DNA from: a cyanobacterium endosymbiont of Epithemia clementina EcSB
Lineage (GTDB): Bacteria > Cyanobacteriota > Cyanobacteriia > Cyanobacteriales > Microcystaceae
NCBI RefSeq assembly: GCF_029919255.1
Contig: NZ_CP123991.1
Location: 2,395,833-2,459,832, forward strand
DNA length: 64,000 nt
Direction of reading: 5' to 3'
The notes under the pieces were generated by a model. That model saw nothing but the letters and a program-made list of their open reading frames with translations. It ran no database searches and was not told the origin of the DNA. A program made the translations under genes and the position numbers. Positions within the stretch are counted from its first letter, which is position 1, and every line of letters starts with the position of its first letter. Positions 16,054 through 58,687 of the stretch are shown one piece after another.

Positions 16054-16086
16054 ATCCCTCATGCTTTTTAAAAAAGCATGAGGGAT
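16054..16086. repeat. long perfect inverted repeat (16-bp arms)
   Basis: Arms 16054-16069 and 16071-16086 are perfect complements around one A. GC-rich outer pairs surround a T5/A5 centre. It lies upstream of the ruvA start, so it is not a ruvA terminator. It may be the surviving terminator of a lost neighbour. Confidence 0.6.
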
Positions 16087-17080
16087 GGTATATTTCTTAA
16101 ATACTTATACATAATGTCCTTGAATAAAATGATAGAAAATAATTTAATTACTTTAACACTGTTCGCATAATTATATTTATGCGTTGACTAAATAATACCA
16201 CACTTTTTTTAAAAAAATGCAATATAATAGTTTATTTTAGTTTAATTTACAATCTATTACACAAATGTTGAATAAATGATCTTCTATCTCCATTAATTGG
16301 TAAAATATCAAAGTATAAATAGAATTATAGACGATTTTAGTATGTGTAATACTGGCATATTAATGCCAGGTAACAAATTACTCCTATTGTAGCTGTTCCA
16401 GTAAAATAATAACCGATTTAGAAATAACTTTGTTCATATTCTAGTTGTAACAGTAGATCTTGAAAATAACTAGTGATTGCACAAACTTTTTCCAGTTCCA
16501 ATCTTGTATTTAAAAATTTGCCCAGTGAATATTAACGTCCTCTTTAGAGAAGGCAAAATAGATTCGAGTCTCTATAGAAGCAATTAAAGCATCAGACAAT
16601 TATAGAGATTTTTTCAGAAATTAAAGTATAAATGAAGTGCTCGCTCTGTTGCATAAACAATTTTAGTCCTATAGGCAATTTAATATTGAGTTGAATATTT
16701 ATTGAAAAAGGCTACAGAACCATTATTTTCTACTATAGGATGATCTAGCTGAGTCACAAACAAAAAACTAAATATCTCAAATGTTTCTAGATCTTATTCT
16801 TTATGTGTTTACGTGTTTTTTGATTATTGATTTTTCCAAAATTACTTTGCTTATAAAAATGGACAAAACCTAGCAATATAGTGATTATTTATTTATATAT
16901 ATATTTTGTCAAATTAAATATAACTAATAAGTCCACTATTAGTATAGATTTTTTTGTAAGAACAAATAATGTTAGAAGTGTAGATATTATTTTGCTTGTT
17001 AAATTGACTTAAAATAGATAAGATAAACTTATAAAATATTTAGACTTTTACCAAAGATAGTCTAAACTTTTACAATTTGA
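16087..17080. other. 1-kb degraded spacer
   Basis: No intact gene is seen. A 7-bp hairpin (CTGGCAT/ATGCCAG) lies at about 16350-16369. Minus-strand codons around 16450-16790 look faintly protein-like in several frames but do not match a family I can name. Confidence 0.4.
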
Positions 17081-17089
17081 CTTCATTAA

Positions 17090-17800
17090 AGTAATATCTG
17101 ACTGTTTCATTGCTATTGTTTACTATTAAATCATTCAGTTCTCAAAGTCTTATCTAGGAGTTATACATTGACAAATTATGTTAAAGATATATTATCTAGG
17201 ATAGATAAAGCGCTCACTATGTATTGGACTAACTCAAAATTGATTTGACATAATTGCTTTTAAGCTCGATGATAACATTCAATAATCTGATGAGTTGTTT
17301 TTTATTTTAAAAATAAACTTTTACTAACCTCGTTTCAGTCTTGATCATCTTATTAAAACAAAATCTAAAATAGCACTACATCGTTTCTTTAAAATTATCA
17401 ATACATTAACTTTGCCAAATTATGTAATAGACATAATATCCTTATTTTTCTATTTTTATGGGCTTTTAACTAACTAAAACTTGATAAGTTATCAACTGAT
17501 ACTTATCAAGTTTTAGTTATTTTTATATTAAAACTTAATTGCCAGTTCCGAGATACATAGTTAAGTATCTTGAAAAAAATTACTGCTTAAATATTTTAAT
17601 TCGACGACAAAATATTGAAGGTAGATATCTAACTGATACTTAGCTATCTAGTCTATTTGTTCGTAACAATTCCGATAGTTATCTCCCATCTTTGACAATT
17701 TCTTCTATATCTATTATTTTTTTACTCTTTATTCTTGTCGATAAGTTTACATTTTTAGATAATCCATATTTGATAAGTTTATCTAAGTAATCTATAACTT
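17090..17800 (-). mobile_element. transposase remnant, copy B
   Basis: Minus-strand pieces in order suggest one decayed transposase. An N-terminal to middle part at about 17570-17800 includes IEEIVKDGR, then LSELLRTNRLDS and VSVRYLPSIFCRRIK. A C-terminal part at about 17170-17390 includes IIECYHRA and INFELVQYIVSALS. Stops split every segment. The C-terminal part aligns with copy A at 14640-14960. The inverted repeat at 17471-17519 lies between the two parts and could be foreign to the gene. Confidence 0.5.
17471..17519. repeat. long perfect inverted repeat (19-bp arms)
   Basis: Arms 17471-17489 and 17501-17519 are perfect complements with an 11-base loop. There is no intact gene within 300 bases on either side. 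Confidence 0.6.
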
Positions 17801-17865
17801 ATGGAAGCCATACATCATACTAATTTTCTAATAGTTTTTTAAAAATTACAATTTGATATAATTTT

Positions 17866-18639
17866 TTATTTGTGAATTAAACGGTTAGCGGTTCGTAAAA
17901 TTTTTCCAGCTAAAATCGCAGCGCCAAAGCCATTATCAATATTCACGACTCCGATCCCTGCCGCACAAGAATTAAGCATTGTCAATAATGAGGAAACCCC
18001 CCCAAAACTTACTCCATAACCTACACTAGTTGGAACTCCAATCACTGGACAGTCAACCATTCCGGCTACCACACTAGGTAAAGTCCCTTCCATCCCTGCC
18101 ACCACAATCAACACATCTGCTTGATTAATCAACTCACGGTTACTTAATAGACGATGAATACCTGCTACTCCCACATCCCACAACCGTCGTACTTCAAACC
18201 CACAAAGTTGCGCGGTAATAGCTGTCTCTTCAGCTACGGGTAAATCGGCTGTTCCTGCCGCAAGAACCCCAACTACTCCTAACCTAATCGAAGGGATTTC
18301 TGAAGTTTTCAAGGCACAAATACGAGCTACTGGATAGTAAATTAAATTAGGCACTTGGTCTTTGAGTTGTTCGGCCACCGTTGCCTCAATACGAGTTGCC
18401 ATAACCACAGGAGAATTACATGCCATCGTAAGCATAATTTGAGCGATTTGTTCAGGAGTTTTTCCTGGTCCCCAAATAACTTCAGGAAACCCTGTTCTTA
18501 AATAACGATGATGATCAATTTTTGCAAACTCATCAACCGGTTCAAAACTGAAATATTTGAGCTTTTCTAAGCCTTGATCGGGACTAACTTCTCCTATGGC
18601 GATCGCCTGTAGAAGAGACTGGAGTGCATTTGGATTCAT
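17866..18639 (-). CDS. larB: nickel pincer cofactor biosynthesis protein LarB
   Basis: The 257-residue protein matches LarB: a distinct N-terminal helical part and a C-terminal PurE-like Rossmann domain (GVVGVLAAGTADLPVAEET, then VVAGMEGTLPSVVAG and GVPTSVGYGVSFGG). LarB carboxylates and hydrolyses nicotinic acid adenine dinucleotide to begin synthesis of the nickel pincer nucleotide used by lactate racemase and relatives. In many cyanobacteria larB occurs without a neighbouring larA, and neither larC nor larE is next to it here. AAGGAG lies ahead of the ATG. The intact frame amid decay suggests continued use, though its client enzyme is unknown. Confidence 0.88.
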   Translation of the reverse strand: MNPNALQSLLQAIAIGEVSPDQGLEKLKYFSFEPVDEFAKIDHHRYLRTGFPEVIWGPGKTPEQIAQIMLTMACNSPVVMATRIEATVAEQLKDQVPNLIYYPVARICALKTSEIPSIRLGVVGVLAAGTADLPVAEETAITAQLCGFEVRRLWDVGVAGIHRLLSNRELINQADVLIVVAGMEGTLPSVVAGMVDCPVIGVPTSVGYGVSFGGVSSLLTMLNSCAAGIGVVNIDNGFGAAILAGKILRTANRLIHK

Positions 18640-18662
18640 GGTTTTAAATTCTCCTTAAACTA

Positions 18663-19079
18663 TCTAAACGATTGAATACGACTCAGAGGCCAAGCAATTT
18701 TATAGGCTTTTTCTACAATTACCTACCTAGGTAAAAATCTAGGGAGCATACAGTATAGACTCTTATTTCGATCAAATTCTAACATTAAGTAATTAATAGC
18801 CTGAGTTAATTGAGGGCTTAATTGATATTGAAGCAGTTCAGCAATTTAAGGTTTATTCAAAAGATAATTTTTCAGGTAAACTTTCTGATTAACCACATAA
18901 AGAGCTTCTCCATGCTTGCCTACCACTAGCTTTTGCTTAATGTGACAATCAGCCAATTCAGAATTATTAGCTTTAATAGTTTCTGATTGGGTAAAAACAA
19001 TAATATTCCCACATTGAGGAACATAGTTAGGAGTATTACTCACAAAAAATACCCTAACTGATACAATCGGTTGCATCAA
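18663..19079 (-). pseudogene. unidentified ORF with in-frame stops upstream of larB
   Basis: A 77-codon frame (TTG at 19079 or ATG at 19076; contains PIVSVRVFFVSNTPNYVPQ and KQKLVVGKHGEALYVVNQ) ends at a TAA. The same frame then continues protein-like for 60 more codons (IAELLQYQLSPQLTQAINYL, a TAG, then VIVEKAYKIAWPLSRIQ) and stops just before the larB ribosome-binding site. One frame with two stops suggests a recently broken gene of about 138 codons. The first 77 codons alone could still be expressed. The family is not recognised. Confidence 0.5.
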
Positions 19080-19751
19080 TTTACCAAAAATAATAATTTT
19101 CTAAAATTGTTGATTAAGCCATTAGTGTAAATTCTCCTCAATAGGACTAGCAAAAAAGACCAAACTTATCATCGTATGGGTAAAAATATAATCTAAATTT
19201 AGAAATAAAAGATTAGAACTCAATATTAGTAACCCTATGATTGATTTTTTACAAAAAATCTTTCCTTAAATTTATACCTTTAGTGGGAGATCAACCACAA
19301 CAATATTGACTGAGTAAATAACACAGTCAATGGACTAAGGTATTTAGCTCTTGACTGTATTCCCATCCACCACAAAAATTTCCATAAGGCCATCTATATT
19401 GAAATACCTTGATCTCTTAGAAACATAATCGTCCGTAGAAGCTCTTCTTCATAAAGCTGTCCGATATCTGAGAAAAACATCTATAGATTCACAGCCAAAC
19501 AACCAAGGATATTTATTAATTTCAAAGCTTGACATTCTTCTAGTAATTATTTTACTTGTGAAATACACTAAGTTTTAGTGGCAGGCAAAAAGCAAAACTA
19601 ATAAGTCAGAGTACATCTCCTGACCCTAAGAAAAACTATTTCTTTAGTATCTACTCAGAAAAATGATTGTTTTAATTCCTAAATATCTAACTTAGAAGTC
19701 TTTGAAATGATAACTTATACGTAACTTACGACCTTACGGCAAAAGTTAAGA
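19080..19751. other. 670-base degraded spacer
   Basis: No intact gene is present. A minus-strand protein-like stretch at about 19380-19480 (DIGQLYEEELLRTIMFLRDQ) hints at one more wreck that I cannot name. Confidence 0.4.
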
Positions 19752-21146
19752 TTAATTTGATAGATGGGGTAAGGTTTGCTTAATAAATTTTTGGACCAAG
19801 GCAGTGCGTTTATTTTTTTCGAATACCCGCCTTATTTTTTGAGGAAATTGAGTTAGATCTATCTCTTCTACTGCCGATGAATCAAGATCTTGTTCTTGGA
19901 AATGTTCAACTAAACTCAATCCAGCTAAACGAGTTAAATAGGCGGCACTTATTGCTTGAATTGTTCCCCCAGCAATATAGGTAATAGCATTATTTTTGAG
20001 AAAACTGCCAATAGTTTGAGTTGATAGTTCAACTAATCCTAATTTAACTATCAATTTACCAATGGTTATTGAAAGAGCTTGTGCTTGAGAAAAAGATAAT
20101 TTCTGTTGATAAATTCCCCCTAAATCTATAACTAGTTGAGAACTAATAGCGGCGGTAGCTAACAAATCTAAAGCAGCTACAGGATTAGCAAAAGCACTAG
20201 CTGCTGCAATCCACTGATATTTTTCAATAATGGGTAGAGCGCAATCGCGTCTTATGCTATCAAGATTTGCTTTAGCCTCTTGTTTAAGAGATACTGCTTC
20301 ACGCCATAGACTCCCCCAGACTAACATTTTTCTTTCGAGTTCTAAAATGATTTTTAAGCGATCACTCAAAGGATTAATTTCAGGAGGTTGGGATTCAGTC
20401 CACTCCCTAATTATCCCATTCTCTTCATGCTGACGAACTTTTAGAGCTTGAGGAGCGGCACTAATGGCAATAATATCAGAAGGGGCAATCATCGATTTGA
20501 GTTGTTGCCGTACTTGTTCTAGAATTAACGCTCTTTCTTCTGGAATATACTGATCCTTTTTATTAAAAACCAGAATAAATCGTTGATGATCTTGGTTACA
20601 TTTTTGTAAAAATCTCCAATGAGAATTGGTTAAATCTCCGGTAATTAATAATAAAATTAGGTCCGCTTTTATCTCAGGTATTTTTATCTCTTTAAACAAA
20701 GATTCTATCTCTATCAAAGAGATATTCTTAGAGAGATCTTGAGCTAATAGTTTTTCCTTTAAAGTTGTTTTCCCAACCTTTTGGCCTCCTGCTAGGGCAA
20801 TAGTTAGTTCTTGACGCTCAAAGCCTAAAGATAATTGAGTTAATTGTTGCTTAAAGACAGAAGTATCACAATCTGGTGCTTCGGTAGCTAAGGTGTTAAG
20901 GATTAGTTCTCCTTGAGTAATTACATCTCTAACTGATTGTTCAGTTAAACGTGTTACTGGCAATGGCTTATTTTTCATTTCTTTTTGTCTTTGCCTCCAC
21001 CAAAACCCTAAACCCAAGGATATTGCGCTAAGTATTCCCCATTCTCCTACTTCTAGAATTTGTTGACTAAAGCTATTATAAAACCATAATATGAATGAAA
21101 TACCGACGCCTACCACTAGAATTGGTTTGTTAACTTCTTTTCTCAT
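19752..21146 (-). CDS. membrane-associated GTPase with C-terminal DUF697-like domain
   Basis: The protein starts with an N-terminal membrane hairpin (residues 8-25 and 36-50). An Era/HSR1-like GTPase domain follows, with P-loop GGQKVGKTT (120-128) and G4 motif NKKD (195-198). The C-terminal part is alpha-helical, hydrophobic and DUF697-like (residues about 300-420). Such cyanobacterial GTPases are widespread and of unknown cellular role. I prefer the ATG at 21146, because GAGGAAG sits at the right distance upstream; a TTG five codons earlier would give 469 residues. It follows the 2TM protein gene with an 80-base gap and is probably co-transcribed with it. Confidence 0.8.
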   Translation of the reverse strand: MRKEVNKPILVVGVGISFILWFYNSFSQQILEVGEWGILSAISLGLGFWWRQRQKEMKNKPLPVTRLTEQSVRDVITQGELILNTLATEAPDCDTSVFKQQLTQLSLGFERQELTIALAGGQKVGKTTLKEKLLAQDLSKNISLIEIESLFKEIKIPEIKADLILLLITGDLTNSHWRFLQKCNQDHQRFILVFNKKDQYIPEERALILEQVRQQLKSMIAPSDIIAISAAPQALKVRQHEENGIIREWTESQPPEINPLSDRLKIILELERKMLVWGSLWREAVSLKQEAKANLDSIRRDCALPIIEKYQWIAAASAFANPVAALDLLATAAISSQLVIDLGGIYQQKLSFSQAQALSITIGKLIVKLGLVELSTQTIGSFLKNNAITYIAGGTIQAISAAYLTRLAGLSLVEHFQEQDLDSSAVEEIDLTQFPQKIRRVFEKNKRTALVQKFIKQTLPHLSN

Positions 21147-21225
21147 TATTAACTTCCTCAAGCAACCCTTCCTTAAAAATTGTACTTTTTATAATCTATT
21201 TCCTCTTTCGATGTTTTTTACTTTT

Positions 21226-21723
21226 TCAAGATTGCCATGCCTTTTTTAACTTATCCCAAAGACCCGAAAGGGATTCTTTCATCTGTTTTTTAAGACTCCA
21301 ACGTTGAAAGGCTTGTTCATAAGCTTCTCCCTCTGTTTGAAATACTTTCCAAGTATCTAGAGACAGGGGCAATCCTAAGAGTAAGAGAGTATACAACGAC
21401 CAAGATAAAGTCCCCGAACTAAAGAAATTTATCATCAAAAAAAATCCGTTAACAATAGCATAGCGAACAGCCTTTTGTTTTAATTTTTCCTGCCTATAAT
21501 AATCAAATTCCTGTCGTTTACGTTCGATTATCTTACTATTAAGCCAATCGCGCTCAGCAGATCTCAGAGAGTCATGATCAATGTCTAATTCAGTGGCAAT
21601 TTCCCACAGTTGCGTTCTTGACAATTCTGAACCATCGGCTGTACGAGTGATCGCTAGGTGAAGAATTTCTTGGACATCATTGTGACTGTAGGATTCAGGG
21701 GGTTGCACGTTAGAAGTTGACAT
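21226..21723 (-). CDS. 2TM-domain protein
   Basis: The 165-residue protein has an N-terminal helical region resembling SHOCT/YlxR-type regulators (SHNDVQEILHLAITR, SRTQLWEIATELDID). A 2TM domain with two close membrane helices follows (around 87-104 and 108-125: RYAIVNGFFLMINFF and LYTLLLLGLPLSLDTW), then a basic amphipathic tail ending LKKAWQS. Proteins of this type commonly precede a GTPase gene in cyanobacteria. Here it sits directly upstream of one. A link between the two products at the membrane is inference from position only. Confidence 0.72.
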   Translation of the reverse strand: MSTSNVQPPESYSHNDVQEILHLAITRTADGSELSRTQLWEIATELDIDHDSLRSAERDWLNSKIIERKRQEFDYYRQEKLKQKAVRYAIVNGFFLMINFFSSGTLSWSLYTLLLLGLPLSLDTWKVFQTEGEAYEQAFQRWSLKKQMKESLSGLWDKLKKAWQS

Positions 21724-21827
21724 AATTTACTTACTTTAGACTCAACTCAGTGAACCAGCTTGTCTGACTATGATTGTCACCGGAAAATCAGCCAGGCCAA
21801 ACCTCTTTAGATTTTATCTTGAATCTG

Positions 21828-21873
21828 AAAACAGGGTCAGTTTATGATTAGAATCATAAACTGACCCTGTTTT
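21828..21873. repeat. long perfect inverted repeat (21-bp arms)
   Basis: Arms of 21 bases (21828-21848/49 and 21852-21872) are perfect complements with a loop of about 2 bases, beginning AAACAGGGTC and ending with T residues. It has the form of a strong bidirectional terminator, but both neighbouring genes (minus-strand 21723, plus-strand 22356) start here rather than end. Confidence 0.65.
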
Positions 21874-21879
21874 ATAATA

Positions 21880-22355
21880 TGCACCCGCTTTTTGGATCTT
21901 AATAAACATTTAGTACTTTTGAATATTTGTTGCTCAGTAGTTAAAATTACTTCCTAACCTATAATGCTTGTCATGCCCACAAAAATTGTTAGTTTTTCCA
22001 GCTTAACTATGAAAAGTCGCAATAGTAAAACCCCAAAAGTTTCTTTTTACAGGATTTCCAGGATTCCAAACACTTGATTTCTCTAAAAAACAAGTGTTTA
22101 GATTTATGAAATATTCCCAGAATAATAATTTTAAAAGTTATTGGCTGCTGGTCTATCATTCTCAGTTTAAAAGAGCCAAATTATTTTCTGGTATGTTCCA
22201 TCTTCATTGTAGAATGGTGAGCTAGAGAACGCTAGAACCGTCTTTTTTTTGGCGGGTATATTGCTTAGTTGCAGGTGCGTTCAAGCCTTTAGAATACTTT
22301 CTTGGGGCTTCTGAGGTGAATTGTGATTTTGTTGTATAGAATTTGGAGAGAATTA
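21880..22355. other. leader of ppa
   Basis: About 480 non-coding bases. There is a hairpin AAACACTTG/CAAGTGTTT at about 22068-22102, and GC-richer sequence at 22230-22340 that may include the ppa promoter. No frame is recognisable. Confidence 0.4.
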
Positions 22356-22868: not shown

Positions 22869-25450
22869 CTTCTAAGTACTTCACCTAAAACTCGGTGATT
22901 GATTGATACTCCCTGCCCATAGAAGGTGCGGGGTTTGTTTAACTGCAAACTCTTAGAGAACATATTATTTAATTAATTAACTTTGTTATATTGCTCAAAT
23001 AAATCCTTAATATTAAAAAATAAATAGAGCAAACTGTTCCGGTTATAGCATAATAAAATTTACCTAAAGATAAACAATTTCATAAAAACTACGAGATTCA
23101 TTAATAACTTATACTTTTACTCTTTTTATTAAAGGTATATTCTCGATATTTTCTATATTTAAGTTGTTAAGTTTACCCGGATAATTAACAACAAATTATC
23201 CCAATAACTAAGACTGGACTTTAAGTAATTTTAAATTATTTGATAAAGTGTAACAAGCGTCTTAAGTCTGATTCAATCGGACTGTTCTCTAATTAATATG
23301 GTAATTGGTTTTATTTAAAATCTTATATCTGTAAGTCTACTTTCTTTTGAAAAGTCAGTATAAGATGGTGATATTTCTATTATGAAGGATAATGATGAGG
23401 TTAAATAGCTTTTAAATAAAAATTAGCTAATTTCAACAGTCTTGACACTTGATGTAATTTTTTCTAAAAATTGTCATAAATTTTTCTTACAATTGGTGTC
23501 TCCTCGAGAAGACTGATGATATTTTATACACCTAATTAAGTTCAGTTTTCTATTGTTTACTTAAAGTCACTCAATTTATAAAGTAGATATATTTACTTTT
23601 ATTTAGATTTGACCTATTTTTTAATTTTCTTATTAGCTTTTTAAAAGCCCTCTATACTCTAATTTCAAATAGTTTATTTAATTATCTAATTGATGAATAT
23701 TTATTTATTCTTTTTTAAAAAATTTATACAGATCGATATCCTACAAAATTTTTATGTACTTTTTAAATAGCTATACAAACTTTTTTTAACTTATCTACAA
23801 TCTTTTCGTAAAAATCAAACTAACTACTTTACTATCTCTCTCATTTTTATTATTTATATAATTTATACACTTACTATTTGAGCTTAATCTATAAAAATTA
23901 GATAATAACTCTCATTTCTTAAAAATCCAGCAACTTCTACATTGCCAATTATTTTAATCTTGCTATTGACCGATTTTATAATCATAAATTTAACATATTT
24001 TAATGTAAATTAAATTCTTTTTTACTTAGCCCACCTCTTTTTAAAAAAGATTTTTATATTGCTCACATCTGATTCGACGACGATCTATTTATTTTAAAAT
24101 AAATAGATTTCTATTCTAGAGTTCAATTTCTAATATTGTGTTTATTCTTTTTATAAAATTTTTAGTTGTTGCACTCTAATAAATAAAAGTGGATATTAAG
24201 TCCATTTTTGTTAAAATCAAACTATTACTATCTCATCTAAAATCTAATAATAAAGAGCAGTTAATTTTATTTAAAAAATAATATTTTTTGATTAAAATTA
24301 ATAATTAATGTTTAATTTTAATCAAATATCTCTTAGTTAAGAAGAATCTGACTTAGATGTAAGTCCTATGAATATACTATTTGTATAGTAATCATTATTT
24401 TTCTGTATTTTTTTAATAAAAAAGTCTTATTTATATAAAAAAAATAATTATTTATACAGATCTAATAGAACTAAATATATTTAGATATATTTAGTTCTCT
24501 GGCAATATATTATTTACTTTACTTATCAAAAAAATAAATTTATGTAGTTTTTTAAAAATTTAAAAAATAAATATAAACCAGCTTTAAATAGTTTATAATG
24601 TGATTTTTATGCTAAGTTTATTTACTAGCAAGCTAATGAAACTTAAAAATGATTAAATAATTTTAATTGAGTGACAAAAATAGTCAAATATTAAAGACTT
24701 ATTTATAGAAGCTATGCAATCATATATATATGACTTAATTGTATAAATACAGTTTATGTATATTTATTATTGCCTACTTAATTTTCTAAAAAAACACAGA
24801 ATTAAGAGCTAACTGTAAATAATAAAAAAAAGGAATTAACAGGTAGAATTATGAAGATAAATATGAATTGATCATGGCAGTTACAAAAAATATTGAATCA
24901 CACTCAAGACTAAATATTTTAGAAGTAGATAATTTTCTAATTCTTAATTAGAAAATTTAAAAAGTCAATTAACTATAAACTAAACAGAAAATGTTGAAAT
25001 ATTATTCAACAGAATAAAAATTAGTGTCGAATCTTAACAAACTAATAGAGATGTTAGTTTTGAGCCTTGTTTTAGCTTTCTAGACTAAGTTATATTCCTC
25101 TTTTTCAGTATGAGTTAACGTTTTACTGTTTCCTTAATGGTTCTTAATATATAAAATTCAAACTTTCAGCCTTTGTTTATTAAAACATTGTCATAGCTAG
25201 TCTAGAAAAACCATCAATTTAAGCCTGCATAGAGCCGTCTACCTTAGTTGTCAAGCTCAAATTTAAACTCTAAGTCAATGCCCCGTTACTATCATCAAAG
25301 CGGTCCAATCATTAGTAATCTCTATGAGCAGTCGAGCTGGGCAATCATACTCGACTAAGCTCTTGCCTATAATCTTCTGTTATCCTTAAGAGTGAAAGTG
25401 AATTAATTTTAATCTCAAGTGTTGTCAACGTTCTACTAGCATTCAAGGCT
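22869..25450. other. 2.6-kb AT-rich spacer
   Basis: The longest gene-free stretch in the window. Stops are dense in all frames and the sequence is mostly A/T. A perfect 13-bp-arm palindrome lies at 24083-24108. Near 25270-25350 the plus strand briefly reads protein-like (YYHQSGPIISNLYEQSSWAI) just ahead of ndhM, perhaps the last piece of a lost upstream gene. No RNA gene is found. Confidence 0.5.
24083..24108. repeat. perfect palindrome (13-bp arms, no loop)
   Basis: Positions 24083-24095 and 24096-24108 are perfect complements with no spacer. It lies more than 1.2 kb from any gene. Confidence 0.5.
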
Positions 25451-25807: not shown

Positions 25808-25879
25808 TTCTTTCTTCAGCTCAAGCTGATAGAGATTCTAGACAGATACTATTCAATAGCTTGAACGACAATGTCTTCT

Positions 25880-25908: not shown

Positions 25909-25914
25909 GGAAAA

Positions 25915-31317: not shown

Positions 31318-31989
31318 GAGTTGACTATTAGGTTTCTATCTAAAGCACTTCTTAGAAAGAAATTAATACTATTCAATCAATTGAATTAATCCACTTAAGT
31401 TTATATGAAGCTAATTATCTACAATTGAGGTAGATGAGCTTAACTAAATTTTTTATATAAAAATAGTTAAACAAAGAGCAGAAGAGTGATTACAAGATAC
31501 AAAATTTTGTAATTATTACGCTAATAGCGTTAGAGAAGCAAGTACTATTAAAGTTTAATTTTCATAAAAAAGTTCACTACAAAATAAAAATAAAGAGCAG
31601 GAATGTTATCCTTAAATATAAGTAAGCAAAGATTTTAAAAAGTCTAGATTGGACAAATCTATCTAACATTTTTTTAAAAAAAATGTTAGATTATCCGAGA
31701 GATCAAAAAAGAACTTGTAAAGAAGAAAACATAAAATATCTTAAATAATTATCATTAAAATAATTAAATAACTTGCAATAGCCAATGATTCTCTAAGAGT
31801 TTAAAAGCCCTAAAATAAGTTAGATTAACTTCAGTAATGATCTGTTCCTTTTCAAGAAAAAGGCTGTAAATACAAAGTAACAAAAGTGAGTAATAAAAAT
31901 ACTATGTATAAAAAAATAAGAAATAGATAATTATAGAAAAAAGGAAAATAAAGCTGAATAATATGGCAAAGAGCAAGAAATAGATGCAG
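31318..31989. other. 670-base AT-rich spacer
   Basis: Eroded sequence with a near-perfect palindrome at 31662-31690 (TCTAACA and T-run against A-run and TGTTAGA). No gene is seen. Confidence 0.45.
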
Positions 31990-32163: not shown

Positions 32164-32879
32164 TAGCATAAAATTCTTTCAGTTTACTTTTTATTCTAAA
32201 CTGAAAAATTTTTTTTAGGTAACTAGGTATAAGTTATCAGTTGGTCGTTAACTGTTTCAATCAAGAGGCATTTATAAATTTCTTGTCACCAACAAAAAAT
32301 TTATAAATAATATTATTGAGTGCTAGAAGCAGCTGATTCCAACCTTAAAATGGTCTTTTTCATCGCCTGGAGATCTTCTTGTGTAAGATGTATAAACTAA
32401 TAATAGCCTGGTTTTTAGGGACAATAATGTTGAATATTACACCCGTATCAATGGTTTCTATGTCCTTAAATTAACAGTAATTCTTCTTTCATGTTTATTG
32501 AAGGTAAATAATTGTTGAATAACAAAAAATAACTCTAAGATGAAACTTGTACTTTGTTTTGATTCTCACTTTACTATCGGAGTCTTGAGAAAAACTCCGA
32601 TAGTAAAGTGAAGGAAAATCCACGAGGACTAATTGTTTTAAAAGGTTGATTATTTTTCCCTAATGACTGTAAATACAGTCCCATATTTGTTGAGCAATGT
32701 TAGAAATTAATCTATAAAAAGACATAATTTGAAATTAGAGTCAATATTTCTACTCATACTATATTAGTATCTTTTCAACTATTGAATAAATCCGGAAGGG
32801 AAAGAATTAACTATGGTCAATAGTAGCTTAAGATCCTAGAAAAAGATAAACTAATAGAGAAACTCCTAGAAAAATATCT
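32164..32879. other. degraded spacer with a long hairpin
   Basis: The minus strand at about 32320-32400 reads LTQEDLQAMKKTILRLESAA before a stop, perhaps the tail of a lost gene. An 18-bp-arm inverted repeat is entered separately. Nothing else is recognisable. Confidence 0.4.
32566..32611. repeat. long perfect inverted repeat (18-bp arms)
   Basis: Arms 32566-32583 and 32594-32611 are perfect complements with a 10-base loop. No U-tract on either strand and no intact gene within 1 kb, so it is not an ordinary terminator. Confidence 0.6.
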
Positions 32880-39838: not shown

Positions 39839-39975
39839 ATTTATTTTTTAATAAAACTCTATTTATTTATAAAATATATTTACAATAAACTAAAGAAAGT
39901 GAATAAAAAATTCTAAATAAATACTTAATAGATAATGGATACTTTTTAAGTATAAGAGTTATCATTACAGACTTA

Positions 39976-40013
39976 AAAAGTATCTATTTACCTTCAGGTA
40001 AATAGATACTTTT
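39976..40013 (+). terminator. long hairpin terminator after the esterase gene
   Basis: Perfect 18-bp arms (39976-39993 and 39996-40013) with a 2-base loop end in TTTT. It lies 138 bases past the esterase stop. Confidence 0.6.
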
Positions 40014-41150
40014 AGTTGACATTAACATTTTAAGACAATCATACACAATCAATAAAATATCTAATACTATTATTGGCTTAAATCTATTCTCTAATAAGAG
40101 CGGCATAATTTAAAATTACTTTTTAATCATATTTTTTAAAAACTAGTGCGCCATTAATACTATCTCTAAATTGATCGTTATTCATAAGTATTTTAAAAAG
40201 GATATATCGATATTAAAATAAGTTAAATATAGAGGCTATTACATATCAGCAATAAAATTTTATTTCATCCAATCTTCTTAAGGAGAAACACTTACAGTAT
40301 TTGAGTTGAAATTAGAATCTAAGTGGATCTAATCCTAACTAACATATTTTATCGCGTTTCCTTTTATCAGTTTCCTGTTGACTCATAATTTTTTTTAGCA
40401 ATACAGATGACAAACAAAAAATATTTATCATTTTAGATTAAGTGTTACGTGTTAATTTATTCCTGTGTATAAGCTATAGCAGTCAAAAAATAGAAAAATA
40501 GATAATAACTTTTAATAAGTGAAAGTTATTATCTATTTTTCTATTTTGTCCTATTTTTAGGATAATCTAAAATTATTTAGGTTTCTAACACTAATTTAAA
40601 ATCAATAGAATTGATTAAACATCTCTAGATTAGGAAATAGAAACTAAAGACTTTTAAATTGTGCATAAATAAATTCTATCAGCCCTCTACAATATGCCTG
40701 TAGCACTTTTCTAAAAAAATAGATAGAATAATCAAGGATTGTAAAAAAAGTATGTTACGAACGAAAATTTAGCTACTGAACGAATAACTAACAAAGTAAA
40801 GATTGTAATTTCTAGACTCGAATGAGAAAAGAGACGAGATAATGATAGAATTAGTGTTTTTAGCAGAAATCTTCCACTACTCCCAAGAAAAAAGTGAGAT
40901 GATTGAACTTTAAGCTTTTAGAGCTCAGGTAATAACCATTTAACTCTAGTACCACTCACAGAATTTTTAATGAGAAAACTTGAAATTGACTATATCCTAG
41001 CTTAAAGTTGCAAGATTTAAGAAAAAATAGTCTCCCACAATATTTTGTTACGACAATACAACAGATGATAGTCAATCAAGCATCTTTTTAGGTCAGTTCG
41101 GGAACCCGTACACAACCACCTGTTGCCACGATCACCTCTATTTCGCTAGA
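40014..41150. other. 1.1-kb spacer upstream of groES
   Basis: AT-rich sequence containing the 26-bp-arm inverted repeat entered separately. GC content rises after 41080, where the groES promoter should lie. No recognisable gene. Confidence 0.45.
40487..40547. repeat. very long perfect inverted repeat (26-bp arms)
   Basis: Arms 40487-40512 and 40522-40547 are perfect complements with a 9-base loop (TTAATAAGT region). The nearest gene ends about 650 bases upstream and the next starts about 690 bases downstream. Confidence 0.7.
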
Positions 41151-48026: not shown

Positions 48027-48180
48027 GGAAGCAGCAGCTCTATGCTAGAAGCAGCACTTATTGAGGTCTGGTGCTATGTATATAAAATATCGTCTTAATT
48101 TTACCGAACTATCTTATGGTCCAGACCACTTTTATTAATTGATGAATAGTATTGTTACCTTGTCTATTAATTCAAATAAT
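48027..48180 (+). repeat. dispersed degenerate repeat, copy 3
   Basis: It shares GAAGCAGCAGCTC and GGTGCTATGTATATAAAAT with copy 2 (minus strand, 43560-43690), and more weakly the following 60 bases. One frame reads SMLEAALIEVWCYVYKISS before a stop, parallel to LEVLCHGCRISSW in copy 1. Confidence 0.55.
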
Positions 48181-48221
48181 ATATTTTAAATAAGTACTTA
48201 TTTAAAATATATTATTTGAAT
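48170..48221. repeat. 52-bp perfect palindrome (26-bp arms, no loop)
   Basis: Positions 48170-48195 and 48196-48221 are exact complements without any spacer; 26 consecutive matched pairs. It lies immediately after repeat copy 3 and 910 bases ahead of ilvD. Without a loop it is more likely to form a cruciform than act as a normal terminator. Confidence 0.7.
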
Positions 48222-50975: not shown

Positions 50976-51026
50976 AAGAATTTAAGGATGTTTCATTACA
51001 TTATGATGAAACATCCTTAAATTCTT
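50976..51026 (+). terminator. long hairpin after ilvD
   Basis: Perfect 21-bp arms (50976-50996 and 51006-51026) with a 9-base loop; the 3' arm ends ATTCTTTG. It begins 159 bases after the ilvD stop. Confidence 0.55.
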
Positions 51027-51469: not shown

Positions 51470-51652
51470 TTAATTATATTTAAGTAAAAAAACAGAAGTA
51501 GGATAATAAATCCACTCTTGGGTATCAGAAGCTCGCTTAGCTGTAAAAGTAATTATAGCTAAGCGAGCTTTGAAACAAAATTGTACTCCTGAAACAGGAC
51601 AATTTAAGCGATTACTTATTTTTTTTACCGTAATTTCTTGAGGATGGATCAA
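51470..51652 (-). CDS. small hypothetical ORF or remnant (60 aa)
   Basis: The frame starts at a TTG (51652) and reads IHPQEITVKKISNRLNCPVS, then FKARLAIITFTAKRASDTQ and EWIYYPTSVFLLKYN. Composition is protein-like. Upstream in the same frame, beyond a TAA, the sequence is still protein-like (IIRPTPGPTTTQ), suggesting the present ORF is the C-terminal part of a longer broken gene. Family not recognised. Confidence 0.4.
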   Translation of the reverse strand: MIHPQEITVKKISNRLNCPVSGVQFCFKARLAIITFTAKRASDTQEWIYYPTSVFLLKYN

Positions 51653-52154
51653 AATTAATTTTTGAATTTACTGGGTGGTTGTTGGTCCTGGGGTAGGGCG
51701 AATAATGGTAAATGGCAAAGTTTAGGTTACTCAATCTATAATAGGTTTTTTTTCATTAAAATAGAGGGTGTCTTTTAACCTTATTTTTTGCGAAACAAAG
51801 TAAATAATCTTACTATATATTCTCGAAGTCATCAAAACTGACTGTCAAAAATATCCTGTCAATAAACTTATTCAATTTATATAGATTCGATCTAAAAAAA
51901 ACTCTCAACTTTAAAGAGATTAATCTCTATTTACATAAAATTTATAGTTTTCAATATAACTTCCATACGGAATAGATTTTTCATCGGACAACTCCTCTTT
52001 CTTGAAAACTGTAAATTGCTATCTCAGAATAAAAAAAACTGATCATCTCCCATACCGATTATTAGAATTTTTTTCGTTGGGGTGTAATTAAGCAACATTT
52101 TTCTCTCAATCCCTCATAATAAAGATAAGTAATGTAAACTCTCTTAGAGAACCC
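51653..52154. other. 500-base spacer upstream of the ArsA gene
   Basis: AT-rich sequence, with the upstream piece of the possible 51470-51652 remnant at its start. No other feature is seen. Confidence 0.4.
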
Positions 52155-53330: not shown

Positions 53331-54382
53331 TATAAACCAAACCTAAAATAATCCGAATTTTAGCTATTTTTACTAAATTGACAGATAAAATTATGATCAA
53401 CTAAAGATTGAGTATAATCTCCTTCTTTAGTTTTTATTTTTCTGATAATCTTTAGGGTATACTAAACTTATGATATAGATTTAACTAGTAAAATACCAAG
53501 TCAAAAAACTTTGTAGTTGAGAATAAACGAAGTTGCTAAACCCATAAACTTTACTTTTAGTCAACTTCAATTTATGATTAATGTCTTCACTATTCTTTTA
53601 ATTATTTTGGGTAAAAATAAACGATAGATTCTTCAATCTAAACCTAATTATTGTTTTTTTAAAAAAAATTCTAAATTTATTTTACAATGGTGAGTTTTTT
53701 ACATAACTGGTTTAATTTAGTTTTTTGTTCTTTGTTTTAATTCTCTTTGTTTTTTTTAAAATGTTTACTAATATTTAGTATTGACAATTTCTCAACAGCT
53801 ATGATGTATTTAAACTAAAAGTAATATAAAAACTTTTTTACATCTATAAAATTGGTAATTTAACGAAAACCTACGTGCTATCCTTTATTTTTAACTAAAA
53901 TGGTTAATACGCAATATAAGCTAATCAAGACATTCTAAATTATGCAAGTTCTTGCTCCTATTTTCAATACTAATTGAACTTTTAAAAAAACTATTTTTAT
54001 CTCATATCTTGTACATAAATATATAAAAAGTTTAGTATTTCTATCAGTGTTAGAAACATTAAACACTAATTTATCCACTTCAATTAATATTGATTAATAA
54101 ATATTACCTTTATCAATATCGTGGCTAATAGCCTAACTATTCATTCAAATAAATCAGTCATAACTCTTTTTCTGACTGCCGTTATTGATAAGTTTGTTGG
54201 AACTTGGAAAATGAGATGTAAACAAATATATATCTCTATCAATAATACTACTAAACTTTCAAAAATTACTTCAATTTCTTGATTTAACTAAAATACTAAT
54301 TTGAATAACTAAAACGATAATAATTGTATGGCGAAACAACTTAATTTTTCTTTTTTCTTGTTAATTTAACTTTAAAGTAAAA
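53331..54382. other. 1.05-kb AT-rich convergent spacer
   Basis: Between the ArsA gene and the cta operon. Stops are dense in all frames and no gene fragment, RNA or long palindrome is recognised. Confidence 0.5.
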
Positions 54383-54424
54383 AATAAAAAAACTGGGTCA
54401 CCAAGAAATTCTCAGAACCCAGTT
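54383..54424 (-). terminator. terminator of the cta operon
   Basis: AACTGGGT (54391-54398) pairs with ACCCAGTT (54417-54424). On the minus strand a TTTTTTATTTTTT tract follows. It lies 31 bases after the ctaE stop. Confidence 0.85.
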
Positions 54425-54455
54425 ATTTAAAACAAATTTAAGATTATCCTAAACT

Positions 54456-55052
54456 TTACAAAAGATAAACCAATGTAAAAAGGATAATCCAAACTACATC
54501 CACAAAGTGCCAGTAAATTTCTGCTACTTCAACCCCAAAATGGGACTCACTAGAATAATGTCCTTCTTCATGTGAACGCGATAACACTGCTAGAATTAAC
54601 AACAGACCAAAGGTAACATGAAGTCCATGAAATCCAGTTAAAGCATAGAAACAACTGGCAAATAAATTAGTGGTTAATCCCATCTCTAGATGGAAGTATT
54701 CATACATCTGACCGATAAGGAAGACAATACCCATAACGGCCGTGGTTCTAAACCAGAACTTTAACCCAGAAACGTCATTTTTCTTGATAGCAGCTTGACC
54801 TTTATGCATCACAAAACTACTAGCAACCAGAATTATTGTATTAACCCCAGGCAATAATAATTCTAATTCCGGCGTTCCTTCAGGAGGCCAAACAGGAATG
54901 ATCGTGCGATAAATAATAAAGGCAGCAAATAGTCCCAAAAAAATAGAACTTTCTGCTATTAGAAAAAGGGCAATCCCAAAAAATCGATGGTCTGGATGAC
55001 CACTGTGAAGGTTAACAGTTCCTTGTGACTGTTCAATTGCTGATCCTTGCAT
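54456..55052 (-). CDS. ctaE: cytochrome c oxidase subunit III
   Basis: The 198-residue integral membrane subunit has five evident helices, with the conserved GLFAAFIIYR, FYALTGFHGLHVTFGLLL and YWHFVDVVWIILFTLVYL near the C terminus. It is the short five-helix form usual in cyanobacteria. Third gene of ctaC-ctaD-ctaE, 112 bases after ctaD. Confidence 0.96.
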   Translation of the reverse strand: MQGSAIEQSQGTVNLHSGHPDHRFFGIALFLIAESSIFLGLFAAFIIYRTIIPVWPPEGTPELELLLPGVNTIILVASSFVMHKGQAAIKKNDVSGLKFWFRTTAVMGIVFLIGQMYEYFHLEMGLTTNLFASCFYALTGFHGLHVTFGLLLILAVLSRSHEEGHYSSESHFGVEVAEIYWHFVDVVWIILFTLVYLL

Positions 55053-55164
55053 AACTATTGTTTGATGGAATAATAGTGACAGAGTAAATCTAAGACAAAA
55101 AGAATGAAAAGAATAGCGATCACGTATTGTAAAGATTAACCGTGATCGCTTTTGTTCATGAGCA

Positions 55165-56832
55165 TTATCTCGATTGAGAACCGACTTCTGCTAACATGTT
55201 GTCGACAGTTTCTTCCCCATTGATAACTTCTGAATCTGTACCGTAATCGTAGGGACCTGCCCATAATATTGGTTCTTCTTCAAAGTTTTCAATGATGGGA
55301 GGAGAGGCCGTTTGCCATTCTAGAGTGTAGGCACGCCAGGGGTTACGAGCGGCTTTTTCGCCTTTATTCAGACTCCAAAGGATATTGATAACAAAAGGAA
55401 GACTAGAAACAGCTAGAATGTAAGCCCCAATGGTGCAAATTAAATTGATGGGTTCGAACTGCACATCATAAAGGGCAACACGACGATTCATTCCCATTAA
55501 CCCCAATTTGTGCATAGGTAAAAAGGTAATATTCAACCCAATGAACAAGAGAATAAAGTGCAATTTACCCAGAGGTTCATTAATCATCCGCCCCGTCATT
55601 TTAGGGAACCAATGATAAAATCCAGCAAACAGTCCCATGGCTGCCCCACCGAAGAGGACGTAATGGAAATGTCCTACTACAAAATAAGTATCATGGACAT
55701 GGATATCAAAGGGAACAGAAGATAACATAACTCCTGTTAAGCCACCCATGACGAAGGTTGCAATGAACCCAACTCCAAACAACATGGCGGTATTGAGATT
55801 GAGCTTTCCATCCCAAAGGGTTGCACACCAACTAAAGATTTTAATCCCTGTGGGAACAGCAATCAGCATAGTAGCTGCCATAAAGAAGATCCGTAACCAT
55901 CCTGGTGTTCCACTGGTGAACATATGGTGCGCCCAAACAATTAACCCTAAGAAGCTGATGGCTAAACTCGAGTAAGCGATCGCTCGATAGCCAAAAATCG
56001 GTTTGCGGGAGTGGACGGGTAATACTTCAGAAATAACTCCAAAGAAAGGTAATATCATGATATACACCGCCGGATGGGAGTAGAACCAGAACATATGCTG
56101 GTAAACGATTGGATCTCCTCCTCCTGTGGGGTTAAAGAAGGAAGTTCCGGCAATAAGATCAAAAGAGAGAAGTACTAATGCCGCAGCCAAAACAGGGGTA
56201 GAAAGTAGAATTAGGGCTGATGTCGCTAACATCGACCAGCAAAACAGAGGCATGCTGTGGAGATCCATATCCGGAATCCGCATTTTGAAGATGGTGGTAA
56301 CAAAATTAATTGCCCCCAAAATCGAGGAGGTTCCCACCAATAAAACGCTCAAAATCCAAATTTCTTCCCCCCAAACCCCGCTAACTAAACTCAAGGGAGG
56401 ATAGGAAGTCCAACCAGACTGAGGGGCCCCATTAGGAACAAAAAAGCTGGCTAGCAAGAGGATACCCCCTGGAGGAGTTAACCAAAACGCCACCGCATTG
56501 AGGGTGGGAAAAGCCATGTCTTCAGCCCCGATCATGAGGGGAATTAGATAATTAGCAAAAGCAGCCCCAGCCGGAACAATCCACAAGAAGATCATAATCG
56601 TTCCGTGGATGGTCATAATTTGGTTATATAAGGCCGGGGTGACGAAATCTGGGTCGGCGGTGGCTAATTCTGTACGAATGACTTCCGCAAAAGCCCCACC
56701 GATGAAGTAGAAAGCAAAAGAAGTAACGAGGTATTGGATCCCAATCACCTTATGGTCGGTGCTAAAGGTAAAATAATCCGTCCACTTCCTTTCTTTATGT
56801 GCCGTATGGTTTGACGCGACTACTGTTGTCAT
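55165..56832 (-). CDS. ctaD: cytochrome c oxidase subunit I
   Basis: The 555-residue catalytic subunit of the aa3-type terminal oxidase has all heme-copper ligands visible: the low-spin heme histidine in MTIHGTIMIFLW, CuB ligands in FYSHPAVYIMILP (with the cross-linked tyrosine) and VWAHHMF, and HDTYFVVGHFHYVLFGG with the heme a3 and second low-spin ligands. It reduces O2 to water and pumps protons. Middle gene of the cta operon. Complete conservation shows that oxygen respiration is retained, and consumption of O2 could also protect any nitrogenase, which is inference. Confidence 0.98.
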   Translation of the reverse strand: MTTVVASNHTAHKERKWTDYFTFSTDHKVIGIQYLVTSFAFYFIGGAFAEVIRTELATADPDFVTPALYNQIMTIHGTIMIFLWIVPAGAAFANYLIPLMIGAEDMAFPTLNAVAFWLTPPGGILLLASFFVPNGAPQSGWTSYPPLSLVSGVWGEEIWILSVLLVGTSSILGAINFVTTIFKMRIPDMDLHSMPLFCWSMLATSALILLSTPVLAAALVLLSFDLIAGTSFFNPTGGGDPIVYQHMFWFYSHPAVYIMILPFFGVISEVLPVHSRKPIFGYRAIAYSSLAISFLGLIVWAHHMFTSGTPGWLRIFFMAATMLIAVPTGIKIFSWCATLWDGKLNLNTAMLFGVGFIATFVMGGLTGVMLSSVPFDIHVHDTYFVVGHFHYVLFGGAAMGLFAGFYHWFPKMTGRMINEPLGKLHFILLFIGLNITFLPMHKLGLMGMNRRVALYDVQFEPINLICTIGAYILAVSSLPFVINILWSLNKGEKAARNPWRAYTLEWQTASPPIIENFEEEPILWAGPYDYGTDSEVINGEETVDNMLAEVGSQSR

Positions 56833-56976
56833 AGGAAATTGAATGATACTTTACAATGACTTAGAAATGGAATAGCCCAAGTTAAGGATGATGAGTTATA
56901 AGGTATATGGCAATATGCATTAAGGCCAAAAAGTTGTTGTACTCAAGGTTGTCTCTTTGGTCTTCTGCCTAATCCT

Positions 56977-57912
56977 TTAGGGATGGGGTACTTGAGCTAA
57001 GGTTTCTTTGTGGATGCCCATTTCATGGGCATAGGGGCGAAGAAACTCTCCCCCAGAGAGACTTTTGGGATTAACTGCTACTGTTTCATCCAAGCTCGCT
57101 TTTTGAATAGGTTTATTAGTTTCTTCCCATTGAGCATAAGTTTCTTCATCTTCAACGTGGAGAACAGCTCTCATCCCACCATGGTAAGCTCCACATAATT
57201 CAGCACAGACAATGGGATAGTCTCCTTCACGATTCGCGGTAAATGCTAACATCGCATCTCGTCCAGGAATCGCATCTTGTTTAAGACGTAATTGAGGAAC
57301 CCAAAAAGAGTGGAGAACATCAGTTGCAGCAATAGTTAATTGGACGGGGCGATTTTTCGGGACATGAAGTTCTCCTGAAGTGATTCCCGTCTCAGGATAG
57401 GTAAAAACCCAAGCATATTGCATTCCTTGAACTTTCACCATGAGGGGAGCAATTTCTCCGCTTTCATTGGCAGAGATTCCAATTCCTAAAGCAACTTGCT
57501 TGTGATTACCATCCATCGCAATTTGCTGAGGTGGGGTGTCACGAGAAATTACGGGGTCAAGTCCCCCCATATTGCTATAGACCTCAAAACTATAGAGAGC
57601 AAGGATAAAAACGATAACGGTAGGAATGGCTGTCCAAAAAATTTCTAAAGGGACATTGCCTTCGATAGGTGGCCCGTCAGTTTGATCGTTGGGACGACGG
57701 CGAAATTTAATCAGACAAAACACAAGGGTCCCTTCCACTAGTAAAAAGAGGCCGATGGCAATGCTAATCATAAAATTGAAAATGCCGTCTACTTGTGTGG
57801 CATCGTAAGAAGCAGCCACTGGCATAAGTCCGTGATGTTGACCATACCAGAGGCTAATTAGAGTGATTACGACACCAACAATCAGAGTGATGATGCTACT
57901 GGGAATCTTCAC
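56977..57912 (-). CDS. ctaC: cytochrome c oxidase subunit II
   Basis: The 311-residue subunit has two N-terminal membrane helices (about 5-24 and 48-70) and a periplasmic/lumenal cupredoxin domain. The CuA site is intact: DVLHSFWVPQL supplies the first histidine and CAELCGAYHGGM the two cysteines, glutamate, histidine and methionine. It accepts electrons from cytochrome c or plastocyanin. First gene of ctaC-D-E with a 144-base gap to ctaD. Confidence 0.97.
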   Translation of the reverse strand: MKIPSSIITLIVGVVITLISLWYGQHHGLMPVAASYDATQVDGIFNFMISIAIGLFLLVEGTLVFCLIKFRRRPNDQTDGPPIEGNVPLEIFWTAIPTVIVFILALYSFEVYSNMGGLDPVISRDTPPQQIAMDGNHKQVALGIGISANESGEIAPLMVKVQGMQYAWVFTYPETGITSGELHVPKNRPVQLTIAATDVLHSFWVPQLRLKQDAIPGRDAMLAFTANREGDYPIVCAELCGAYHGGMRAVLHVEDEETYAQWEETNKPIQKASLDETVAVNPKSLSGGEFLRPYAHEMGIHKETLAQVPHP

Positions 57913-58687
57913 GGTAGTTGATAAGGATATACAATTCGCTACTTAATCAACGGTAAAACATCCTTTCCCAAATAGTGGGTATCTTTATGAGATCTTCAAC
58001 GAATCTTTTGTTTTTCTTTAGATTTTAAATAGGCTGAGAGGTTTAGTGAGTTATAAATTTTAGTTTAACTACAGATTAAATGATGTCATCAAACCTCCTA
58101 TGTGAAAAGTTAAATTAAAAAATAAAATTTATTTTTTAATTTAACTTTAAAAAAGCGACAAATACTCTACCTATAGACGACATAAGTATATTGTACATCT
58201 AATATGAATCATATTAATACAACATTTTTACTTGATCTATACTTATAGAGTTAAATGCTTAACTCAGTTAAATCAATGAAATATTAAAATGGATATCCAT
58301 TATTACCAATAATCAAGTTTTAAGTGAGATAGAAATAGTTTGTTTTTGAAAAAATAGACTTAATAGTAACTTTTACTTATTAAAGTTAGAAAGCCATGGT
58401 GTAATTTAGTGTCGTGTTCTGAAAACCTATTGTCTATTTTAATCAGAAACAATTAGAAGATATTAATAATACATTTAAGTTGATTAAAAAGAAAACCTAT
58501 AAATTCATAAAAAAATATTAATCTTCAACTTAAAATTTAAATATTTTAAGTTTTATTAGTTAATTATTGTCAGTTAATTGAACGTTATCAGCCTAGTGAA
58601 AGCAATTTTATTGATATTTAAAAGTGGTTTTACCATTGTAAGTGTAGCTTTGAAATGAGCTTATATATCTCCCCAGTTAACAACTTA
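57913..58687. other. 770-base spacer upstream of ctaC
   Basis: It holds the cta promoter region and the palindrome at 58106-58148. No ctaA/ctaB-type gene or recognisable fragment is present. Confidence 0.45.
58106..58148. repeat. long perfect inverted repeat (21-bp arms)
   Basis: Arms 58106-58126 and 58128-58148 are perfect complements around one A. Purely A/T-rich core with AAAGTTAAATT ends. It lies upstream of the divergent cta promoter region. Confidence 0.6.

Follow-up and report, generated by a model that had tools for sequence, protein, structure and literature searches.

Perfect inverted repeats in the spacers of diatom symbionts

The spacers of four diatom symbionts (this genome, G000, and three sister diatom symbionts, each represented by samples) contain 151 perfect palindromes with arms of at least 16 bp in 629.5 kb, whereas the ORFs contain 6. 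The repeats are present in excess over chance, exact and placed nearly at random with respect to genes; their perfection is mostly lineage-specific, some of their loops are inverted, and the sampled free-living genomes contrast with the symbionts. Most of these palindromes are probably mutational products of hairpin template switching, i.e., of the correction and extension of quasipalindromes, in weakly constrained spacers. From this genome, 484 kb of 3.07 Mb were sampled. Because ORFs were called mechanically (at least 100 amino acids), short genes and pseudogenes are counted as spacer.

An exact inverted-repeat scan, recording arm and loop lengths, was run over the window, the 64,000-nt stretch of DNA analysed here. 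All ten inverted repeats of the original prediction are exact, and only one arm length needed revision (22 bp instead of 21 bp at 21828). No strand is assigned to these features. They comprise the perfect inverted repeats at 16054..16086 (arm 16, loop 1), 17471..17519 (arm 19, loop 11), 21828..21873 (arm 22, loop 2), 32566..32611 (arm 18, loop 10), 39976..40013 (arm 18, loop 2), 40487..40547 (arm 26, loop 9), 50976..51026 (arm 21, loop 9) and 58106..58148 (arm 21, loop 1), along with the loop-free palindromes at 24083..24108 (arm 13) and 48170..48221 (arm 26). The scan added perfect repeats at 24287..24326 (arm 15, loop 10), 31661..31691 (arm 15, loop 1) and 59366..59403 (arm 17, loop 4), and further repeats at 51529..51570 (arm 14, loop 14), 24467-24498 (arm 14), 39938-39984 (arm 14, loop 19; overlapping the repeat at 39976) and 6998-7026 (arm 13), as well as two with arms of 12 bp starting at 24931 and 32270.

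It had also been suggested that some repeats follow genes and others lie far from them. Judged against mechanical ORFs of at least 100 amino acids (24083 was placed from the ORF list), three are indeed found behind ORF 3′ ends, namely 59366 (68 bp off a minus-strand ORF), 39976 (138 bp past a plus-strand ORF) and 50976 (159 bp past ilvD). The repeat at 16054 precedes ruvA (minus strand) by 53 bp and that at 21828 has divergent starts on either side (105 and 450 bp); for all other repeats in the window, the distance to the nearest ORF is 194 to about 1,200 bp.

Such palindromes are not reproduced in shuffled spacers. A 344-kb sample of this genome holds 64 repeats with arms of at least 12 bp, 50 with arms of at least 14 bp and 41 with arms of at least 16 bp; when all of its spacers were dinucleotide-shuffled ten times, the means were 0.4, 0.0 and 0.0, respectively. 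As a harsh mismatch penalty overstates perfection in a stem census, a milder score is preferred, under which the same sample shows a graded series of 29 perfect, 22 one-mismatch and 11 two-mismatch stems (a single shuffle contained four stems of any kind). The arms differ between repeats and have no sequence in common by eye, as predicted, which speaks against a REP or other dispersed palindromic family. When the stretch 16000-16400 was compared to the whole genome, two matches were obtained, both being its own locus on either strand.

Comparison with sister genomes

The related genomes (G002, G005 and G006) mostly carry imperfect, shorter or changed versions at the same sites. In the G002 counterparts, pairing is retained at 8 of 16 arm positions at 16054 (this stretch is absent from the G005 spacer), 7 of 19 at 17471 and 9 of 18 at 39976; in those of G005, it is retained at 9 of 18 positions at 32566, 12 of 21 at 58106 and 9 of 17 at 59366. 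Base changes and a 4-base gap break the 24083 palindrome in the G005 alignment, and around the centre of 48170 no perfect stem of at least 11 bp occurs in the aligned G005 and G002 sequences. The left and right arms are identical to G005 at 10 and 15 of 15 positions at 31661, and at 13 and 6 of 15 positions in a weak alignment at 24287. No counterpart could be aligned to the repeat at 40487; the corresponding spacer of G002 contains six other perfect repeats with arms of 13-24 bp.

At 21828, G005 holds a 14-bp perfect core whose stem is longer in this genome. Approximately 78 bp that are present in G005, G002 and G006 are missing here; in those genomes they separate the outer 7 bases of what is here the left arm from its inner 15. 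Three positions of the right arm differ from G005, each of which is now paired. At 50976, the arms are perfect in G000, G005 and G002 (21, 23 and 20 bp), with 2-4 pairs changed on both sides across the three species; its loop is inverted in G002. The loop at 51529 is inverted relative to G005 by score (0.93 against 0.43), and G002 and G006 align with the same loop change.

Across the set, the hairpin score at sister sites averages 9.8 versus 6.9 in random spacer, and scores no higher than 8 are obtained at 58% of sister sites and at 81% of random positions (246 mutually non-independent comparisons of a site with a sister, covering 130 of the 194 sites). Nineteen pairs of sites from different genomes match in register, and stems of unequal length are built on a common core (e.g., 14 versus 22, or 12 versus 17). 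The sites are old and their perfection is mostly lineage-specific. The original idea that the arms are kept perfect is thus half right: most sister sites are now imperfect, so perfection is in large part recent and recurrent.

Changes could be polarised at 94 of the 194 sites (721 of 1,859 pairs were not polarisable). One-sided changes closed 175 pairs, 140 on the major and 35 on the minor arm (binomial P = 0.004), an asymmetry of 1.26 times the binomial expectation, compared to 1.08 in control windows. Another 25 pairs went from unpaired to paired by changes on both sides. Paired compensatory changes, proposed earlier as a check, do occur, but only 28 paired positions carry changes in both arms, against the 175 one-sided closures. 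Without polarisation, the arm asymmetry (2.13) does not differ from the value for random blocks (2.01; P = 0.52; 69 of 110 sites). Arms and flanks diverge equally (12.3% and 12.1%); therefore, mutations do not cluster in the arms on average. Single cases in which the older state is largely common to two sisters include G000:1,122,976 and G005:1,000,607. One-stroke overwriting of unrelated sequence is not supported as the usual event, as the worse arm is still 70% identical to the sister (76% for the worse control block). The data agree better with older quasipalindromes being mended and extended.

Loop inversion was counted in several ways. Under a strict count, seven of 61 decided comparisons in spacers are inverted (five loci) and 54 are forward; in ORFs, these numbers are 5 and 83. 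Inverted spacer loops are absent from stems of 8-9 bp and occur in 7 of 32 comparisons with longer stems (P = 0.011). A loose count gives 17 inverted and 11 forward loops out of 37, corresponding to about 11 loci, some of which are weak, whereas in a separate comparison 49 of 57 shared loops are not inverted.

Hairpin template switching as the probable source, and alternative explanations

In the explanation that we favour, a short or imperfect inverted repeat in a spacer would fold into a hairpin during replication, upon which the polymerase may copy one hairpin arm from the other (template switching, or quasipalindrome correction). One such switching event could mend several mismatches, lengthen the stem outward, flip the loop or delete DNA beside it. 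Where spacers are large and decaying and selection is weak, as in obligate symbionts, the products would persist and be mended again, so that perfect palindromes would pile up. The original prediction left the choice between selection and a copying mechanism. Copying is better supported because of the lineage-specific perfection, the pair-creating changes that lean towards one arm, the outward extension and the inverted loops, notwithstanding the negative unpolarised control. Selection on terminators may hold for a few sites such as 50976 and is unsupported for most. Since that control was negative, we infer rather than observe that polymerase template switching, and not another arm-to-arm process, does the copying. 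Relaxed selection is presumably the reason why symbionts show these palindromes.

One such other process is arm-to-arm copying by mismatch repair in extruded hairpins or cruciforms. MutS is present in 15 of the 15 genomes searched, and both the weak arm asymmetry and the occurrence of corrections on both arms suit a mismatch-by-mismatch repair. Nonetheless, mismatch repair alone does not account for outward extension, the deletion at 21828 that is joined to a longer arm, or the inverted loops, and we consider it unlikely as the main process.

Somewhat less probable still is that the repeats are intrinsic terminators, some of them for lost or non-coding transcripts, in which selection on the RNA hairpin keeps the pairing. 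The repeat behind ilvD at 50976, perfect in three species with changes on both sides, is the best terminator candidate. In the four diatom symbionts, however, only 34 of 198 repeats (arms of at least 14 bp) are found no more than 150 bp from the 3′ end of an ORF, with 14-18% expected at random; an excess is seen in G002 alone, and weakly (13 of 56, P = 0.07). The 198 repeats show no T-tract outside the stem, T being about as frequent as A at positions 1-10 beyond it. A mild excess of T over A does exist in the last four stem positions, just inside the outer end, in three of the four genomes and may mark a subset of terminators. Loops are shorter than 3 nt in 75 of the 198 repeats, including 30 loop-free stems. 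The predominance of one-sided closures, the sister sites that are often unpaired and the inverted loops are likewise not explained by terminator selection. Terminators are therefore rejected as a general answer for the diatom symbionts and retained for a few sites and for two UCYN-A-like genomes, in which 20 of 27 repeats are found at 3′ ends.

Other genomes, repair genes and artefacts

The comparison extends to other genomes, among them putative Richelia, UCYN-A, Prochlorococcus and Nostoc azollae. In eleven presumed free-living genomes, 0 repeats were found away from gene ends, where 27.7 were expected; one free-living relative (G001) instead has a 14-bp family starting with GTAG. Seven perfect repeats occur in the 47.6 kb of spacer sampled from the Richelia-like symbiont G435, and the UCYN-A-like genomes contain two that are not at gene ends (10.8 expected). 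AT-richness alone is rejected as a cause, given that three Prochlorococcus-sized genomes (32% GC) have no arms of at least 16 bp in 29.0 kb of spacer. A tentative generalisation is that obligate cyanobacterial symbionts of at least two, perhaps three origins (rhopalodiacean spheroid bodies, Richelia and UCYN-A) share raised hairpin template switching, by which stems would be mended, extended and flipped. Decaying spacers would thereby become fields of palindromes, and the terminators at UCYN-A gene ends would become perfect stems reaching 55 bp. Obligate symbiosis might in that case leave a scar that can be read from the palindrome load, although we regard this generalisation as doubtful.

Loss of a repair gene, RNase HII in particular, could have made the symbionts palindrome mutators. 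In a set of 15 genomes, RNase HII is missing from the six symbionts and found in every one of the nine others, and G000 is the sole genome lacking it in a class sample of 241. Yeast cells without RNase H2 are reported to show more mutations of the kind that extends quasipalindrome arm identity (PMC3820800). Against this, the Richelia-like G435 has an RNase HII match and yet carries its seven repeats, G308 and G334 lack a match and have no arms of at least 14 bp in small samples of 24.9 and 10.0 kb, and the UCYN-A-like genomes without RNase HII fall short of expectation away from gene ends. As a whole, this explanation is very unlikely; RNase HII loss as the sole cause is largely refuted, and it may at most contribute. 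SbcD is, like MutS, present in all 15 genomes searched, leaving no loss of either. For the large subunit of ExoVII, matches above the cut-off were confined to G003 and G015 among 15 genomes and to G309 and G334 among 9. Its loss is rejected as the cause, as it is missing in the symbionts and also in palindrome-poor genomes such as G001, G011, G018 and the three Prochlorococcus-sized ones.

Finally, the genomes derive from diatom symbionts and amplification can produce inverted chimeras, but an artefact of sequencing or assembly, such as a chimera formed by amplification or fold-back, is highly improbable given the similar palindrome densities in four separate genomes, the avoidance of ORFs and the 19 site-pairs in register.

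Relation to known systems

No prior report for these symbionts was found in the open-access papers searched, partly by title and abstract; the terms ‘palindrom’ and ‘inverted repeat’ are absent from the text of PMC12903740 and PMC5638926. The mechanism is already known, while the density and the symbiont pattern look new in the open-access literature searched. If template switching is indeed the source, the four sister genomes form a natural, genome-scale record of it in near-neutral bacterial DNA, and therefore its rate, stem-length dependence, extension and loop flipping would become measurable. It would also be a caution against reading mirrored ‘compensatory’ changes in these genomes as proof of selection on an RNA structure. 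Since free-living genomes differ from symbionts in this respect, one can test whether drift, spacer erosion or repair loss lets palindromes accumulate.

REP-type elements, such as GTAG-tagged repeats (PMC3733652), are also spacer palindromes, but they share sequence, unlike the present repeats. The palindromes of nematomorph mitochondria (PMC6649704) similarly are many, unrelated, long and perfect, in a symbiont-derived genome; they lie in coding genes, whereas the present ones avoid ORFs. Small hairpin-associated inversions in chloroplast DNA resemble the flips observed here in that loops between inverted repeats differ in orientation between relatives. Here, flips accompany perfected and lengthened stems. 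Template switching that generates and preserves RNA hairpins (PMC8794818) likewise yields perfect stems and mirrored multi-base changes with no intermediate steps, in RNA genes under selection, while most sites here are without sign of an RNA function. Quasipalindrome template-switch mutations have been described in E. coli reporters (PMC7202029) and yeast RNase H2 mutants (PMC3820800), where, as here, imperfect inverted repeats undergo changes that complete their pairing or lengthen it. Such assays are engineered or look at a single site, whereas here the products are spread genome-wide over spacers and the cause is deduced by comparison. Template switching at yeast inverted repeats leads to arm homogenization and spacer inversion (PMC8604942), within coding sequences; here, in near-neutral bacterial spacers, arm homogenization is suggested by the polarised changes and spacer inversion is found at few loci.

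Perfect Inverted Repeats in the Spacers

The window corresponds to positions 2395833-2459832 of contig C1 of the source genome (G000; 3,072,807 bp in one contig) and is mostly colinear with the sister diatom symbionts G005, G002 and G006 of the same genus. A mechanical count of open reading frames (ORFs) assigns around half of the sampled DNA to spacer. An exact scan of the window recovered every inverted repeat of the original prediction as exact and correctly positioned, and added further ones. The sighting is real, and shuffled spacers yielded no repeats with arms of at least 14 bp. In enlarged samples, perfect repeats (arms ≥16 bp, loop ≤12) number 55, 26, 45 and 25 in 231.7, 162.3, 150.8 and 84.7 kb of spacer for G000, G005, G002 and G006, respectively, with 1, 2, 1 and 2 in open frames. 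Among the 198 spacer repeats with arms of at least 14 bp in these four genomes, arm length ranges from 14 to 36 bp and the commonest loop size is zero (n = 30). Density is little affected by spacer length (14-26 per 100 kb). The G002 counterpart of spacer 40163-40998 measures 2.1 kb, compared to 0.8 kb in G000, and carries a local cluster of six perfect repeats (arm length 13-24 bp).

Other repeats were also encountered. A stretch of about 120-150 bp at ~22036-22187, with several matches of ~71-75% identity elsewhere in G000 and its sisters, appears to be a degenerate dispersed repeat; likewise, some 200 bp near G000 position 1,005,600, with dozens of 69-83% matches across the three sisters, has the appearance of a dispersed element.

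Changes between Sister Genomes

Of the 172 site-pairs that could be mapped (arms ≥12 bp), 25 have a perfect repeat at the same place in the sister as well, in register in 19 cases; these 19 comprise 275 base pairs, of which 35 have both partners altered. Sister sites have a mean hairpin score of 9.8 versus 6.9 in random spacer, yet 58% score 8 or less. Many repeat places are therefore old, whereas their perfection is mostly new. For a polarised test, the state held by the majority of sisters was taken as ancestral, which made 94 of the 194 sites usable and resolved 1,138 out of 1,859 pairs. One-sided change closed 175 pairs, 25 were closed from an unpaired state through changes on both sides and 28 already paired positions were altered on both sides, while pair-breaking changes are invisible in this test because only perfect repeats were selected. 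The one-sided pair-closing changes are divided 140 versus 35 between the two arms of each repeat. Given that, without polarisation, the arms are no more asymmetric than random blocks (P = 0.52) and that arms and flanks change at an equal rate in the polarised set, we do not claim that most palindromes overwrote unrelated DNA in one stroke. Older quasipalindromes that are mended and extended step by step, probably by hairpin template switching, fit the data, and part of this could be due to mismatch repair inside hairpins.

Single cases (genome coordinates are the start of the stretch plus the offset) illustrate such changes. At G000:1,122,976, two other species retain the right arm at 21/22 and 22/22 positions and have a different left arm, on which they largely agree with each other. 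At G005:1,000,607, an older left arm is common to two sisters. For the repeat at 21828, the perfect core is 14 bp in G005, and three right-arm differences from G005 are every one now paired; about 78 bp present in all three sisters are absent from G000, where they would separate the outer 7 bases of the present left arm from the inner 15.

Some of the hairpins common to several species have loops that are inverted between them, among others at 50976 (G000 versus G002), at 51529 (G000 versus G005) and at G000:1,045,838 (versus both of these sisters). A loose count gave 17 inverted and 11 forward loops out of 37 tested, representing about 11 loci, some weak and several compared both ways. Under a strict count, spacers contain 7 inverted (5 loci), 54 forward and 7 unclear loops, and mechanical ORFs 5 inverted and 83 forward. 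None of the 29 decided spacer loops on stems of 8-9 bp is inverted versus 7 of 32 on longer stems (P = 0.011).

Occurrence among Cyanobacteria and Loss of RNase HII

At the pooled symbiont rate (23.1 per 100 kb), 27.7 repeats with arms of at least 16 bp would be expected farther than 150 bp from any ORF 3' end in 119.8 kb of eleven presumed free-living genomes, but none occurs there (P = 9e-13); three lie closer to gene ends. Evidence against a strict symbiont-only reading comes from the ilvD-region loci of named cyanobacteria (n = 57, one a lichen cyanobiont), which hold 15 repeats in 192.8 kb of spacer at any distance from gene ends, 3 of them in the 81.6 kb from loci below 42% GC. A Richelia-like symbiont of another family (G435) has 7 repeats in 47.6 kb of spacer, none of them close to a gene end, and a genome of Nostoc azollae size has one such repeat in 9.6 kb. 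The free-living relatives G001 and G003 possess a family of 14-bp palindromes starting with GTAG (300 kb of G001 hold several nearly identical copies, and G003 holds one), absent among the symbiont repeats listed.

Loss of RNase HII is an attractive cause, since its yeast counterpart suppresses this mutation class (PMC3820800). No match was found in the six symbionts of the first set (G000, G002, G005, G006 and the UCYN-A-like G013 and G021), and among 241 genomes sampled across the class G000 alone is without it. PMC12903740 likewise reports that RNase HII is absent from these symbionts. Nonetheless, the palindrome-bearing G435 has a match. In a different cyanobacterial family, four genomes out of 215 give no match for the enzyme (G308, G314, G318 and G334), and small samples of G308 and G334 contain no repeats. 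We regard weak selection together with large neutral spacers as a more likely cause in symbionts than a single lost repair gene.

Terminators

The original prediction left a choice between selection, in the form of terminators, and a copying mechanism, of which the latter fares better. Of the repeats with arms of at least 14 bp, those no more than 150 bp from an ORF 3' end number 12 of 68 (G000), 4 of 41 (G005), 13 of 56 (G002) and 5 of 33 (G006), against 14%, 14%, 15% and 18% of random spacer positions (lowest P = 0.07, G002). No T-tract was found outside these stems, T being about as frequent as A; inside, the last four positions show a mild preference of T over A in three of the four genomes. 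The same measures place 20 of 27 repeats of the two UCYN-A-like genomes at 3' ends (random: 31%), so they are able to find terminators. The diatom-symbiont repeats are for the most part not terminators. The perfect gene-end hairpins of G013 and G021 are much longer than termination should require (the arms reach 41 bp in one sample and as much as 55 bp in G021) and are read as overgrown terminators.

Relation to Known Systems

Template switching is an already known mechanism. Within the literature searched, what looks new is the density of palindromes in near-neutral bacterial DNA and their repeated appearance among symbionts.
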